NCBI GenBank assembly: GCA_017308375.1
Contig: JAFKEW010000042.1
Span: forward strand, 62,001-126,000
Direction of reading: 5' to 3'
DNA: 64,000 bases
From: Alphaproteobacteria bacterium
GTDB taxonomy: Bacteria; Pseudomonadota; Alphaproteobacteria; Micropepsales; Micropepsaceae
Within the stretch, counting starts at the first letter, position 1, and each line of letters starts with the position of its first letter. A model generated the notes under the pieces. That model was not told the DNA's origin, did not search any database, and worked only from the letters and a program-made list of their open reading frames with translations. Positions 37,037 through 52,364 of this stretch are shown in pieces. Position numbers and translations under genes: made by a program.

Positions 37037-37070
37037 TGGGGCCTGCGTGTGTTGGGACACGCAGGCCCCA
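37037..37070. terminator. Strong hairpin between convergent genes
   Basis: Perfect 14-base arms TGGGGCCTGCGTGT and ACACGCAGGCCCCA around a six-base loop GTTGGG. It is 19 bases beyond the stop of the AhpD-like gene (minus) and 180 bases after the AraC gene (plus). No long T-tract follows on either side, but position and stability favour termination for both. Confidence 0.65.
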
Positions 37071-37088: not shown

Positions 37089-37547
37089 TTACGCGGCCTT
37101 GGCCCGTTCGCTGAGCGGCACGGAACGGAAGCCGATGGCAAAGCGGTTCCACGCATTGATGGTGCCGATCAGAAGCGTCAGATCCGCCGCTTCCTTTTCG
37201 CTGAAGTGCTGCATCAGCGCTTCATAATCCGCATCCGGCGCATGGGTTTGCGAAATCAGCGTCAGCGCCTCTGTCCAGGCCAGCGCCGCCCGTTCACGCG
37301 GGGTGTAACGGGTCGATTCCTCCCAGGCCGAAAGCATGTAGAGCCGTTCCTCGCTTTCGCCCGCCTTGCGCGCATCGTGCGCGTGCATGTCGATGCAGAA
37401 TGCGCAACCATTGATCTGCGAGGCGCGCATCTTCACCAGTTCGATCAAGGACTGTTCCAGTCCCGATTGATGGATATAGGCTTCCAGCGCCTGCATCGGC
37501 TTCATCGCACCGGGTGAAGCCTTGTAAGGGTCCATTCGTGCCGTCAT
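37089..37547 (-). CDS. AhpD-like carboxymuconolactone-decarboxylase-family protein
   Basis: 152 residues. The start at 37547 (MTARMDPYKASPGAMK) is preferred because AAAGGAG lies eight bases upstream. The AhpD active-site pattern is intact: NGCAFCIDMH with Cys48, Cys51 and His55. Such proteins act as peroxidase or disulfide reductants and are the commonest genomic partners of ECF41 sigma factors. Here the sigma gene lies 13 kb away, but a matching TGTCACA-N16-CGTC promoter lies 30 bases upstream, so this is a likely ECF41 target. Confidence 0.93.
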   Translation of the reverse strand: MTARMDPYKASPGAMKPMQALEAYIHQSGLEQSLIELVKMRASQINGCAFCIDMHAHDARKAGESEERLYMLSAWEESTRYTPRERAALAWTEALTLISQTHAPDADYEALMQHFSEKEAADLTLLIGTINAWNRFAIGFRSVPLSERAKAA

Positions 37548-37576: not shown

Positions 37577-37603
37577 GACGAAACAGCCCGCCCCGCTGTG
37601 ACA
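37577..37603 (-). promoter_or_regulatory. Candidate ECF41 promoter of the AhpD-like gene
   Basis: On the minus strand, TGTCACA (37603-37597), 16 bases, then CGTC (37580-37577), 29 bases before the ATG. It matches the ECF41 -35/-10 motif as I recall it from the literature. The same spacing occurs at 50199-50225 in front of the sigma factor's operon. Confidence 0.7.
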
Positions 37604-48688: not shown

Positions 48689-49132
48689 TCAGGCGCGCGC
48701 GATAATCTTCGCATCGGCCAGCGTGCGCTTGGTCACCAGCGGGTCGACGTGGCGGTGCACGATTTTCCAGTCGCCATCTTCGCGCCGGTAAACCTGCGTT
48801 ACGCGCTGGCTCCAGCTTTGCGGCGCGCTATCGCCGCTGAACGTCACGGTTTGATGTTCAAGCAGAACCAGCACCAGCAGATCGCCGCACTCGTGGACCG
48901 AGAACAATTCCAGCTTCGCCTCGCCCTTTTTGAAAATACCGGCGGCGGCGGGCGCAACCTTGCGCCATTCGGCGGAACCCTTCATCGGCGCCGGCCCGCC
49001 GGTTGGGCCGAAAATGGTGAAATCGCTTTTCTGCGTGATCAGCGCATCGAAACCTGACGGATCGCCGTTCATCAGGCCGTGCGCGGCCTCTTCCGTCCGC
49101 TTCAGCAGGGCGTCGAGTTCGGCTTTGTCCAC
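48689..49132 (-). CDS. SnoaL/DUF4440-like NTF2-fold protein
   Basis: 147 residues of the nuclear-transport-factor-2 superfamily: EEAAHGLMNGDPSGFDALITQKSDFTIFGPTGG at the start and QRVTQVYRREDGDWKIVHRHVDPLV at the end. Such proteins are often small enzymes or binding modules; no catalytic set can be named. It lies 18 bases downstream of accA on the same strand and is convergent with the epoxide hydrolase. It may follow accA by chance. Confidence 0.82.
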   Translation of the reverse strand: MDKAELDALLKRTEEAAHGLMNGDPSGFDALITQKSDFTIFGPTGGPAPMKGSAEWRKVAPAAAGIFKKGEAKLELFSVHECGDLLVLVLLEHQTVTFSGDSAPQSWSQRVTQVYRREDGDWKIVHRHVDPLVTKRTLADAKIIARA

Positions 49133-50198: not shown

Positions 50199-50225
50199 CG
50201 TCACAAATCCAAGGGCTCTCCCGTC
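50199..50225 (+). promoter_or_regulatory. Candidate ECF41 autoregulatory promoter
   Basis: CGTCACA (50199-50205), 16 bases, CGTC (50222-50225), 30 bases before the ATG at 50256. This places the transcription start near 50232, so the ATG at 50256, not an ATG at 50232, should begin the first gene. Matches the site before the AhpD-like gene except for one -35 base. Confidence 0.65.
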
Positions 50226-50255
50226 TTATGAATGAATGTGACGGGGCGTCAAGCC

Positions 50256-50651
50256 ATGTTGATCCGCATCTTATTGATTCTTTTGGGACTATTCCACGCC
50301 GCCAACGGCCTTTTCATGGTCCTGGCGCCTTCGCGCTGGTATCTCGCGGTCCCCGGCGTGATCCACACAGGCCCTACCAATCTGCATTTCATACCCGATA
50401 TCGGCTTTGCCTTTTTGCTAAGCGGGCTCGGCCTGCTACTGGGCGCACGAAACGGGCCCCGTGCGGGCACCTATGCTCTTGCCGGTGCGGCCTTCCCGTT
50501 CGTCCACGCCCTGTTTCATATATGGGGCTGGGGCATGCACGGCTTCCCGCAAGGCACAGCCTTCATCGTTTCTGAAACCATCGGTGTGGTCGGCGTGTCG
50601 TTCCTCGGAATGGCGCTTGCATGGCTGCGCGCCAGAGAGGGAGGAGCGTGA
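50256..50651 (+). CDS. Small four-segment membrane protein, ECF41 operon
   Basis: 131 residues from ATG 50256, chosen from the promoter position. About four membrane segments: LIRILLILLGLFHAANGLFMVL, FAFLLSGLGLLLGA, YALAGAAFPFVHALFHIWGW, VVGVSFLGMALAWL. The family is unknown to me. It overlaps the 43-residue gene after it by GTGA and starts the ECF41 operon, so it could be a sensor or a target of the sigma factor. Confidence 0.82.
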   Translation: MLIRILLILLGLFHAANGLFMVLAPSRWYLAVPGVIHTGPTNLHFIPDIGFAFLLSGLGLLLGARNGPRAGTYALAGAAFPFVHALFHIWGWGMHGFPQGTAFIVSETIGVVGVSFLGMALAWLRAREGGA

Positions 50652-50779
50652 TCAGGCCGGGGCCAGATGCCGCCCTCGCCTTTCGCTGTGGCATTGCGGT
50701 GGCGACGGATGGGAACACGCTGGAACTGGTCGAAAAAGCACGCAACCGCTTCGGCGAACGCGGGCTGATAGTGCTATAA
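50648..50779 (+). CDS. 43-residue small protein in ECF41 operon
   Basis: Starts at GTG 50648 overlapping the previous stop (GTGA) and ends at TAA 50779, ten bases before the sigma gene. The sequence begins MIRPGPDAALAFRCG and ends FGERGLIVL. It has one Cys and an amphipathic helix (NTLELVEKARNRF). No family recognised. Coupling and operon position support translation; it could be a leftover reading frame that merely links the two genes. Confidence 0.5.
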   Translation: MIRPGPDAALAFRCGIAVATDGNTLELVEKARNRFGERGLIVL

Positions 50780-50789
50780 AAGAGGCAGC

Positions 50790-51713
50790 ATGATGGATGA
50801 CGCCACTACCCGCTTCGCCGAGGTCCGGCCGCATCTTCTCGGCCTCGCCTATCGTATGCTGGGTGAAATGTCGGGCGCGGAAGATATCGTGCAGGAAGCC
50901 TGGCTGCGCTGGCACCGCCAGGATACGCACGTCGTCCGCGATGCACGCGCATGGCTTTCCGCCGTCACCATCCGGCTTGCGCTCGATACCCTGCGGTCGG
51001 CGCGCTCGAAACGGGAGACCTATGTCGGACCGTGGTTGCCCGAACCGCTGATGCCGGATGATATGCGCACATTGTCCACCACTGATCCGGCCGCACACGC
51101 CGAACTGGCATCGGATTTGTCGCTCGCCCTGCTGCACACGATGGAACGGCTGTCGCCGGAAGAACGCGCGGCCCTCATCCTGCATGACGCATTCGATTGC
51201 GAATACGCCGAAATCGCCGCCATGCTGGACAAGACGGAAGCCGCCTGCCGCAAGCTCGTCTCCCGCGCGCGGGAGCGGGTGAAGGCCGACCGCCCGCGCT
51301 ACACCGTTTCCCGGCAGCAACACGAGCAGATGCTGGCGCGCTTCGCGCAAGCCGTCACGACCGGCAATACGGCGGAACTGGGCGCATTGTTTGCCGACGA
51401 TGTGGTGTTCTATTCCGATGGTGGCGGCCATGTATCGGCTGCGCGCAATCCGGTATTCGGCATCGACCGCGTCACGCGGCTGATTGCCGGTCTGTGGCGG
51501 AAATTCTATGGCCTCGCGCCGGTCCGCCTCACCGCGACAGAGATCAACGGCCAGCCCAGCATCCTGATCACGGGCGGCGATCAGGTGGTCTCGACCATGA
51601 CCATTGAATGCGAAGACGGGCGTATCACCGCGCTTTACGTGATGCGCAACCCCGAAAAGCTGACCCGGATTCTGCGCGCGGTTACGACGCACCCTTCTGG
51701 TGTAACCACATAG
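50790..51713 (+). CDS. ECF41-group RNA polymerase sigma factor
   Basis: 307 residues. Sigma-2 (about 10-75, LLGLAYRMLGEMSGAEDIVQEAWLRW) and sigma-4 (about 110-165, LSPEERAALILHDAFDCEYAEIAAML) are followed by a SnoaL-like C-terminal domain of about 130 residues. Three group-specific motifs are present: WLPEP (82-86, linker), DGGG (210-213) and NPEKL (287-291). In ECF41 the C-terminal domain controls activity in place of a classical anti-sigma factor. An upstream CGTCACA-N16-CGTC suggests autoregulation. No anti-sigma gene is nearby. Confidence 0.95.
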   Translation: MMDDATTRFAEVRPHLLGLAYRMLGEMSGAEDIVQEAWLRWHRQDTHVVRDARAWLSAVTIRLALDTLRSARSKRETYVGPWLPEPLMPDDMRTLSTTDPAAHAELASDLSLALLHTMERLSPEERAALILHDAFDCEYAEIAAMLDKTEAACRKLVSRARERVKADRPRYTVSRQQHEQMLARFAQAVTTGNTAELGALFADDVVFYSDGGGHVSAARNPVFGIDRVTRLIAGLWRKFYGLAPVRLTATEINGQPSILITGGDQVVSTMTIECEDGRITALYVMRNPEKLTRILRAVTTHPSGVTT

Positions 51714-51722
51714 GTTTGAAGC

Positions 51723-52082
51723 TCATAGTGCCAGCCCGAGGCGTGCAGCGACACCATTGAGCTTTCTGTCACGCGTCCACAGGCGGGTGGCGTCACTCAA
51801 CCGGGCCGAAGCCAGGAGATGCGCATCGACATAACCGATCCCGCTACCCGCCAAGTTCCAGTCTTCAATCGCGCGCAACAATTCCGCGTCGCTGGCAATA
51901 ATAGCTTGCGGCAGATCCTGAAGGGATTCCAATATGAGCTTGCGCTGGCGCAGCGAACCCAGCGCGATTTCACCCACGATAAAGGGATGCACCAGCACTA
52001 GTCCATCGGTGAGCCACCGCGTGAGCTGTGCATCACCCTTGCGCAAATGATCAATCCAGACGGACGTATCGACCAGGATCAC
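51723..52082 (-). CDS. vapC: VapC toxin (PIN-domain ribonuclease)
   Basis: 119 residues from GTG 52082, overlapping the vapB stop (GTGA). PIN-domain acidic residues: ILVDTSVWIDHLR, FIVGEIALGSL, SGIGYVDAHLLASARL and LWTRDRKL. VapC toxins cleave specific RNAs and arrest growth when the antitoxin is lost. Located between the ECF41 operon and the malyl-CoA lyase gene, convergent with the sigma gene with a 9-base gap. Confidence 0.94.
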   Translation of the reverse strand: MILVDTSVWIDHLRKGDAQLTRWLTDGLVLVHPFIVGEIALGSLRQRKLILESLQDLPQAIIASDAELLRAIEDWNLAGSGIGYVDAHLLASARLSDATRLWTRDRKLNGVAARLGLAL

Positions 52083-52276
52083 GGCCGCTGTGGCCGCCGG
52101 CGTGGAATGGGTTTCGCCTTGCGTTCGCTGCCGCCAAGCCGGGCCAGCCGGCGCGCCGCTTCCCGTTCGATCAGCGCTTTCAGTGCTTCGTGCACCAGCC
52201 GGGATTTTTCCTTGTAACCGGTAAAGGCCTGCGCCCGCGCCACAAGCGCGGCGTCGAGGGCAATCGTGGTACGCAT
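52079..52276 (-). CDS. vapB: VapB antitoxin
   Basis: 65 residues from ATG 52276, preceded by GGAG; an ATG 18 bases upstream is possible. The N-terminus RTTIALDAALVARAQAFTGYKEKSRLVHEALKALIEREAARRLARLGG is a ribbon-helix-helix-like DNA-binding dimer of the VapB/DUF2191 type; the basic C-terminal tail probably inhibits VapC. The pair overlaps by four bases, as usual for antitoxin-first operons. Confidence 0.92.
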   Translation of the reverse strand: MRTTIALDAALVARAQAFTGYKEKSRLVHEALKALIEREAARRLARLGGSERKAKPIPRRRPQRP

Positions 52277-52364
52277 TTGCCGATCTCCATCCATGGCACG
52301 AATCTGTCACCAATTGATGACGGATTCAATGCCATTAAATGGACGAAGGAACTACGCGCGAGGG

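Follow-up and report, generated by a model that had tools for sequence, protein, structure and literature searches.

An ECF41-type sigma factor with a decayed AhpD-fold partner gene and a probable unlinked AhpD target

The sigma factor and its operon

The window, the whole 64-kb stretch of DNA that was analysed, carries on its forward strand a sigma factor gene (50790-51713) encoding a protein of 307 amino acids with a C-terminal SnoaL_2 domain, as identified by motifs, by profiles and by sequence matches in a structure database. The Pfam domains Sigma70_r2, Sigma70_r4_2 and SnoaL_2 all scored above their cut-offs, which corresponds to the domain layout of ECF41, where a SnoaL-like extension of about 100 residues follows regions 2 and 4, and the protein also exceeded the thresholds of the NCBIfam SigJ model PRK09636 (347.8 bits, cut-off 271) and of TIGR02957 (331.3 bits, cut-off 323.25). 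The nearest solved structure was that of Mycobacterium tuberculosis SigJ (PDB 5XE7; phmmer E=1.4e-54), a protein from a different phylum which, compared by sequence only, has the same architecture along almost its whole length. The sequence-only reading had credited this protein with three ECF41 hallmarks and a SnoaL-like C-terminal domain, and all of these were recovered, with WLPEP (51033-51047), DGGG (51417-51428) and NPEKL (51648-51662) lying in frame. We take DGGG and NPDKL-type sequences to be the letters of the ECF41 extension motifs; DGGG and NPEKL are kept in congeners and also in genomes G099 and G096. Published work gives WLPEP in the linker as a feature of ECF41, together with a C-terminal extension bearing three conserved motifs (PMC3426412), and the WLPEP of the window's protein is kept in its relatives. 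On sequence, the protein is assigned to the ECF41/SigJ type. No intact COE gene was found adjoining the sigma factor gene, only a remnant; such a neighbour is usual and not required, and about 30% of ECF41 members are orphans without one.

Upstream of the sigma factor gene lies a gene for a DoxX-like four-helix membrane protein (50256-50651, forward strand), whose start was placed by homology within an ORF opening at 50232. Its match to the Pfam profile DoxX_2 (PF13564) was below threshold (17.2 bits, cut-off 26.3), and a fold search with its confidently predicted model (pLDDT 96.8) returned no meaningful match; the protein is filed as DoxX-like only. It had been described as an unknown membrane protein of the sigma operon, of which the membrane location stands, while the protein itself can now be described as DoxX-like and a conserved partner of the sigma factor. 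In a sample of 69 genomes of the genus, in which the window's genome is G000, the sigma factor was present in 11, and every one of these 11 has an N16 promoter-type site before the DoxX-like gene. In 10 of them an intact AhpD-fold gene of about 180 codons stands between doxX and the sigma factor gene, the exception being the window's own genome. The ancestral operon is widespread and consists of doxX, a divergent AhpD-fold gene and the ECF41 gene. No published link between ECF41 and DoxX was found in the literature searched. Two further genomes, G023 (locus L068) and G030 (L075), have doxX-type genes with a good ECF41-type site, and no ECF41 sigma factor was found in either genome, reflecting either loss of the sigma factor or an assembly gap.

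Two minus-strand features flank the operon. A probable VapBC-type toxin-antitoxin pair, named from its translations as a PIN-domain-like protein and a small antitoxin-like protein, follows directly after the sigma factor gene (51734-52294), and a free-standing SnoaL-like protein (Pfam SnoaL_3) is encoded 1 kb upstream of the operon (48689-49132).

The AhpD-fold middle gene and its remnant

The middle gene of the congeners encodes a protein of about 180 amino acids with an invariant EDCGPCxQ motif. Its family was surveyed at 80 named loci (L159-L238) from Proteobacteria, Myxococcales, Acidobacteria and Planctomycetes. An ECF41 gene was nearby at 58 of these loci and a DoxX-like gene at 50, with both present at 42, and an ECF41-type site fell within the locus in 57 of the 58 that bear ECF41, where simple pattern arithmetic leads one to expect about 0.15 chance sites per locus. 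The predicted fold of the relatives' protein (pLDDT 96) best matched AhpD/CMD structures, namely the debrominase Bmp8 (6OHI, TM 0.67), SMU.961 (3LVY) and Atu0492 (2GMY), with TM scores of 0.58-0.67 and a Foldseek E of only about 0.07. The middle protein carries a CxxC and differs from these three proteins in sequence, with only 10-17% identity to them. By prediction, then, the ancestral middle protein has the AhpD fold. Since its structural matches are AhpD/CMD proteins and Pfam CMD at E<=0.01 detects only 16 of 55 family members, the middle protein appears to be a cryptic version of the C of the published COE partners. This EDCGPCxQ family is widespread, occurs mostly in doxX/ECF41 operons and is largely missed by Pfam CMD.

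In the window the corresponding place (50647-50793, forward strand) holds an ORF of 43 codons (50648-50779), which the sequence-only reading had listed as a 43-residue protein of the sigma operon. It is open, lies within the operon and has a GTG start that overlaps the doxX stop, all of which would suit a genuine small protein. When its DNA was aligned base by base with the middle genes of G053, G050 and G004, however, the region proved to correspond to the part around residues 100-140 of the 180-residue protein, followed by the last codons and the original stop of the gene, which is retained at 50791-50793. Relative to the intact gene, two internal stretches have been deleted, the frame is shifted near the 5' junction and a TAA has newly arisen, and the EDCGPCxQ core and the conserved C-terminal RxxPxxKRxxGHxxxC block are both gone. 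When a relative's middle protein was searched against the genome, the match fell in this region too and was interrupted by one TGA and one TAA. On this alignment the ORF is best described as a pseudogene remnant of the local AhpD-fold gene, and it is very improbable that it is a real small operon protein. The same alignment displaced another candidate identity, that of an oxidoreductase fragment.

Promoter-type sites and the unlinked AhpD gene

Two ECF41-type sites had been proposed in the window, and both are exact matches at the places claimed. The first, CGTCACA-N16-CGTC (CGTCACAAATCCAAGGGCTCTCCCGTC), stands before the doxX-(remnant)-sigma operon at 50199-50225 on the forward strand, 30 nt from the doxX ATG at 50256, and was found by motif scan in 11/11 genus genomes with the sigma factor. 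The second, TGTCACA-N16-CGTC (TGTCACAGCGGGGCGGGCTGTTTCGTC), located by motif scan and matrix scoring, lies at 37577-37603 on the minus strand, 29 nt from the ATG at 37547. Their spacing is identical, as had been noted, with 16 bases in each, and both have the TGTCACA-N16-CGTC form expected of promoters of ECF41 targets and sigma operons. Leaders of 22/23 nt have been mapped for ECF41 targets, and the distances of 29 and 30 nt from CGTC to ATG fit these (PMC3426412).

The gene behind the second site (37089-37547, minus strand) encodes an AhpD/carboxymuconolactone decarboxylase of 152 amino acids, placed by profiles and by a tree, with the CxxC-type core NGCAFCIDMH typical of the CMD/AhpD family. 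It is a single gene with its own putative promoter, and is followed at 37042-37067 by a 10-bp perfect inverted repeat, GCCTGCGTGT-GTTGGG-ACACGCAGGC, read from the sequence as a possible terminator. That an AhpD/CMD gene exists and does not adjoin the sigma factor gene is borne out by its profile scores (Pfam CMD E=2.8e-22; ahpD_dom E=8.3e-18) and by its position 12.6 kb from the sigma operon on the opposite strand.

The motif was scanned for in the window and genome-wide. With up to one mismatch, three sites were observed in the 64-kb window against 2.53 expected, and 39 in the genome against 29 for a reversed-pattern control. Near-matches being about as frequent as chance, the motif by itself proves nothing, and the attempt to draw significance from counts alone was dropped. 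Exact NGTCACA-N16-CGTC sites number 14 in the genome and only four of these occupy a promoter position before an identifiable gene, namely those of AhpD, of the doxX-sigma operon and of both members of a divergent gene pair at a second ECF41-like locus; the remaining 10 lie within ORFs or have no recognisable gene downstream. One exact match, in contig C49, was considered as a promoter and rejected, as it lies within an ORF of 714 amino acids. Across the 11 sigma-bearing genomes the pattern GTCACAR-N15-CGTC occurs 52 times (control 21), and among all 52 sites only the doxX operon and AhpD recur downstream, with no further conserved regulon member. The case for site function rests on position and conservation, and it is the comparative sequence evidence that is decisive.

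For this comparison, AhpD homologues of at least 54% identity were classified by three features: an adjoining ECF41 gene, an upstream site and an ECF41 encoded elsewhere in the genome. Where AhpD does not adjoin ECF41 and ECF41 occurs elsewhere, a site was present 55-72 nt upstream in 7 of 7 genomes (G000, G101, G034, G105, G233, G387 and G269); where the genome has no ECF41 (E<=1e-40), it was present in 0 of 11. A Fisher test of six against 11, with G387 left out, gave p=8e-5, which is optimistic because the genomes are related. The two genes share a contig in G101, at a distance of 25 kb, and in G269, at 2.9 Mb; in G034 and G387 AhpD lies close to a contig end, which leaves its distance from the sigma factor gene unproven in these two. 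An intact doxX, AhpD-fold and ECF41 operon accompanies the unlinked AhpD in five of the seven genomes, and dual CMD outputs thus recur; near the ECF41 gene of G269 neither doxX nor the middle gene was seen. That site and sigma factor occur together across genomes, and that other genomes also have the two genes unlinked, supports the earlier reading, in which an ECF41 circuit reaches an AhpD gene away from the sigma operon.

The history of the window's AhpD bears on whether its site is in use. A class-wide tree grouped the protein with ten other AhpD proteins (90/86, moderate support) and apart from the AhpD of the congeners (98/98); of the eleven clade members, nine are encoded next to an ECF41 gene. 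The idea that the window's gene is the congeners' AhpD in a new place was discarded, both on the tree and because the neighbourhoods differ: in the congeners an arylamine N-acetyltransferase gene comes after AhpD, which lies between phaZ and a PadR gene, and different genes occupy the equivalent place in the window (17.5-19.5 kb). From its clade, and from the separate clade of the congeners, the window's AhpD looks like a canonical ECF41 partner that has parted from its own sigma factor gene. Such an origin leaves room for the site having been inherited and now lying idle, as its clade normally adjoins another ECF41 gene, and the near-match counts, at chance level in the window and little above the control in the genome, would also suit a chance match. 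We nevertheless consider it unlikely that the site arose by chance or survives unused from an earlier partner sigma factor, as it has 11/11 motif letters at the exact spacing, stands 29 nt before an ATG with a GGAG, and has no counterpart in any of the 11 ECF41-less genomes with unlinked AhpD homologues. In the congeners, the arylamine N-acetyltransferase gene after the site-bearing AhpD (L156:3861-5227, L157:13367-14657, L158:3883-5373) might be an additional ECF41 target.

A second ECF41-like sigma factor, on contig G000:C68 (L013:2437-3850), is divergent from its own CMD gene, and the two genes of this pair have TGTCACA-type N16 sites (TGTCACATCGGGTTGCTGTCCTTCGTC and GGTCACATTCCATCTCTCTCGTCCGTC) of the same core and spacing as the AhpD site. 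Cross-talk is possible through the shared TGTCACA/CGTC core, and for this reason AhpD is described as a probable target of the window's sigma factor. A matrix built only from the 11 congeneric doxX sites also leaned towards the second factor, by -6.2 bits. Against this, a broad matrix (consensus TGTCACAaCggGcccgGCTGnCTCGTC), built from 47 sites that precede WLPEP-type ECF41 operons beyond the genus, preferred the window's AhpD site over the matrix of the second factor by 10.7 bits, and all 14 sites of the second factor scored the opposite way. At these 14 sites, which form divergent pairs in seven genus genomes, the base following the -35 heptamer is always T, and in the AhpD site it is G. T is found there in 9 of the 47 sites from ECF41 operons elsewhere as well, so that this base is not decisive by itself and its use as sole discriminator was dropped. 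The second factor lacks WLPEP, DGGG and NPEKL and falls below the SigJ cut-off. It is also absent from G034, G101 and G105, three of the four congeneric genomes with AhpD, in which the AhpD site is present, and no close AhpD homologue (E <= 1e-45) was found in G106, G102 and G058, which have only the second factor. It is therefore rather improbable that recognition of the AhpD promoter falls wholly or chiefly to the second factor, and both spacer sequence and co-occurrence favour the window's own.

A model of the circuit and its relation to known ECF41 systems

The genes, sites, remnant, conservation and co-occurrence, all read from sequence, are in our judgement most likely explained by an ECF41 circuit with a target in trans, in which the sigma factor has the promoter of its own doxX operon and that of the unlinked AhpD gene, and in which AhpD is the only intact CMD-type output, the local AhpD-fold gene having decayed. 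By analogy with studied ECF41 factors (PMC3426412; PMC8999054), the SnoaL-like C-terminal domain would restrain the sigma factor until a conformational change frees it. The freed factor may then direct RNA polymerase to the two (C/T)GTCACA-N16-CGTC promoters. At the promoter of the doxX-remnant-sigma operon this would amount to autoregulation, and transcription of the AhpD/CMD gene, on the other strand at a distance of 12.6 kb, would be raised as well. In the lineage of the window the local AhpD-fold gene would have been partly deleted and then decayed, leaving the canonical AhpD, a putative CxxC-type redox enzyme, as sole intact CMD-type output and perhaps in the role of the lost gene. The DoxX-like protein would be a conserved membrane partner.

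In the regulons published for ECF41 the target is a neighbouring gene or operon (PMC3426412; PMC6180224). The factors of Bacillus licheniformis and Rhodobacter sphaeroides (Wecke et al., 2012; PMC3426412) resemble that of the window in their WLPEP linker, regulatory C-terminal extension, TGTCACA-N16-CGTC promoter and CMD-type target, and in having no obvious anti-sigma factor. In those systems a CMD/oxidoreductase/epimerase gene adjoins the sigma factor gene and is its sole target, whereas in the window the place next to the sigma factor gene is taken by an AhpD-fold remnant that follows a doxX-like gene, and 12.6 kb separate the operon from the intact CMD gene. RpoE9 of Sinorhizobium meliloti is likewise an ECF41 factor with a single target, the CxxC-containing CMD SMb20029, whose promoter TGTCACACCGGCGGCCGCTGTCTCGTC is close to the window's AhpD site, and unlike the window operon no doxX was reported for it (PMC6180224).

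Seen against the published picture of one adjacent target per sigma factor, with some 30% orphans, what is new here is the unlinked output, the cryptic AhpD-fold partner and the loss of the cis partner in the window's genome. We lean slightly towards a wider reading, in which doxX-type ECF41 factors run dual CMD outputs, the divergent AhpD-fold gene of the operon and an unlinked canonical AhpD, and the window's genome represents target replacement, its local output having decayed and the sigma factor having been kept for a single intact enzyme target elsewhere. If this is true, many 'orphan' ECF41 factors would have an overlooked partner, either a cryptic AhpD-fold gene missed by Pfam or an unlinked AhpD. 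ECF41 is a large group of sigma factors, and the operon links both a membrane protein and a cryptic protein of redox type with it. The doxX, AhpD-fold and ECF41 operon together with the unlinked AhpD would thus supply candidate partners for orphan ECF41 factors, and the window's genome would offer a clean case of regulon rewiring through loss of the cis target.
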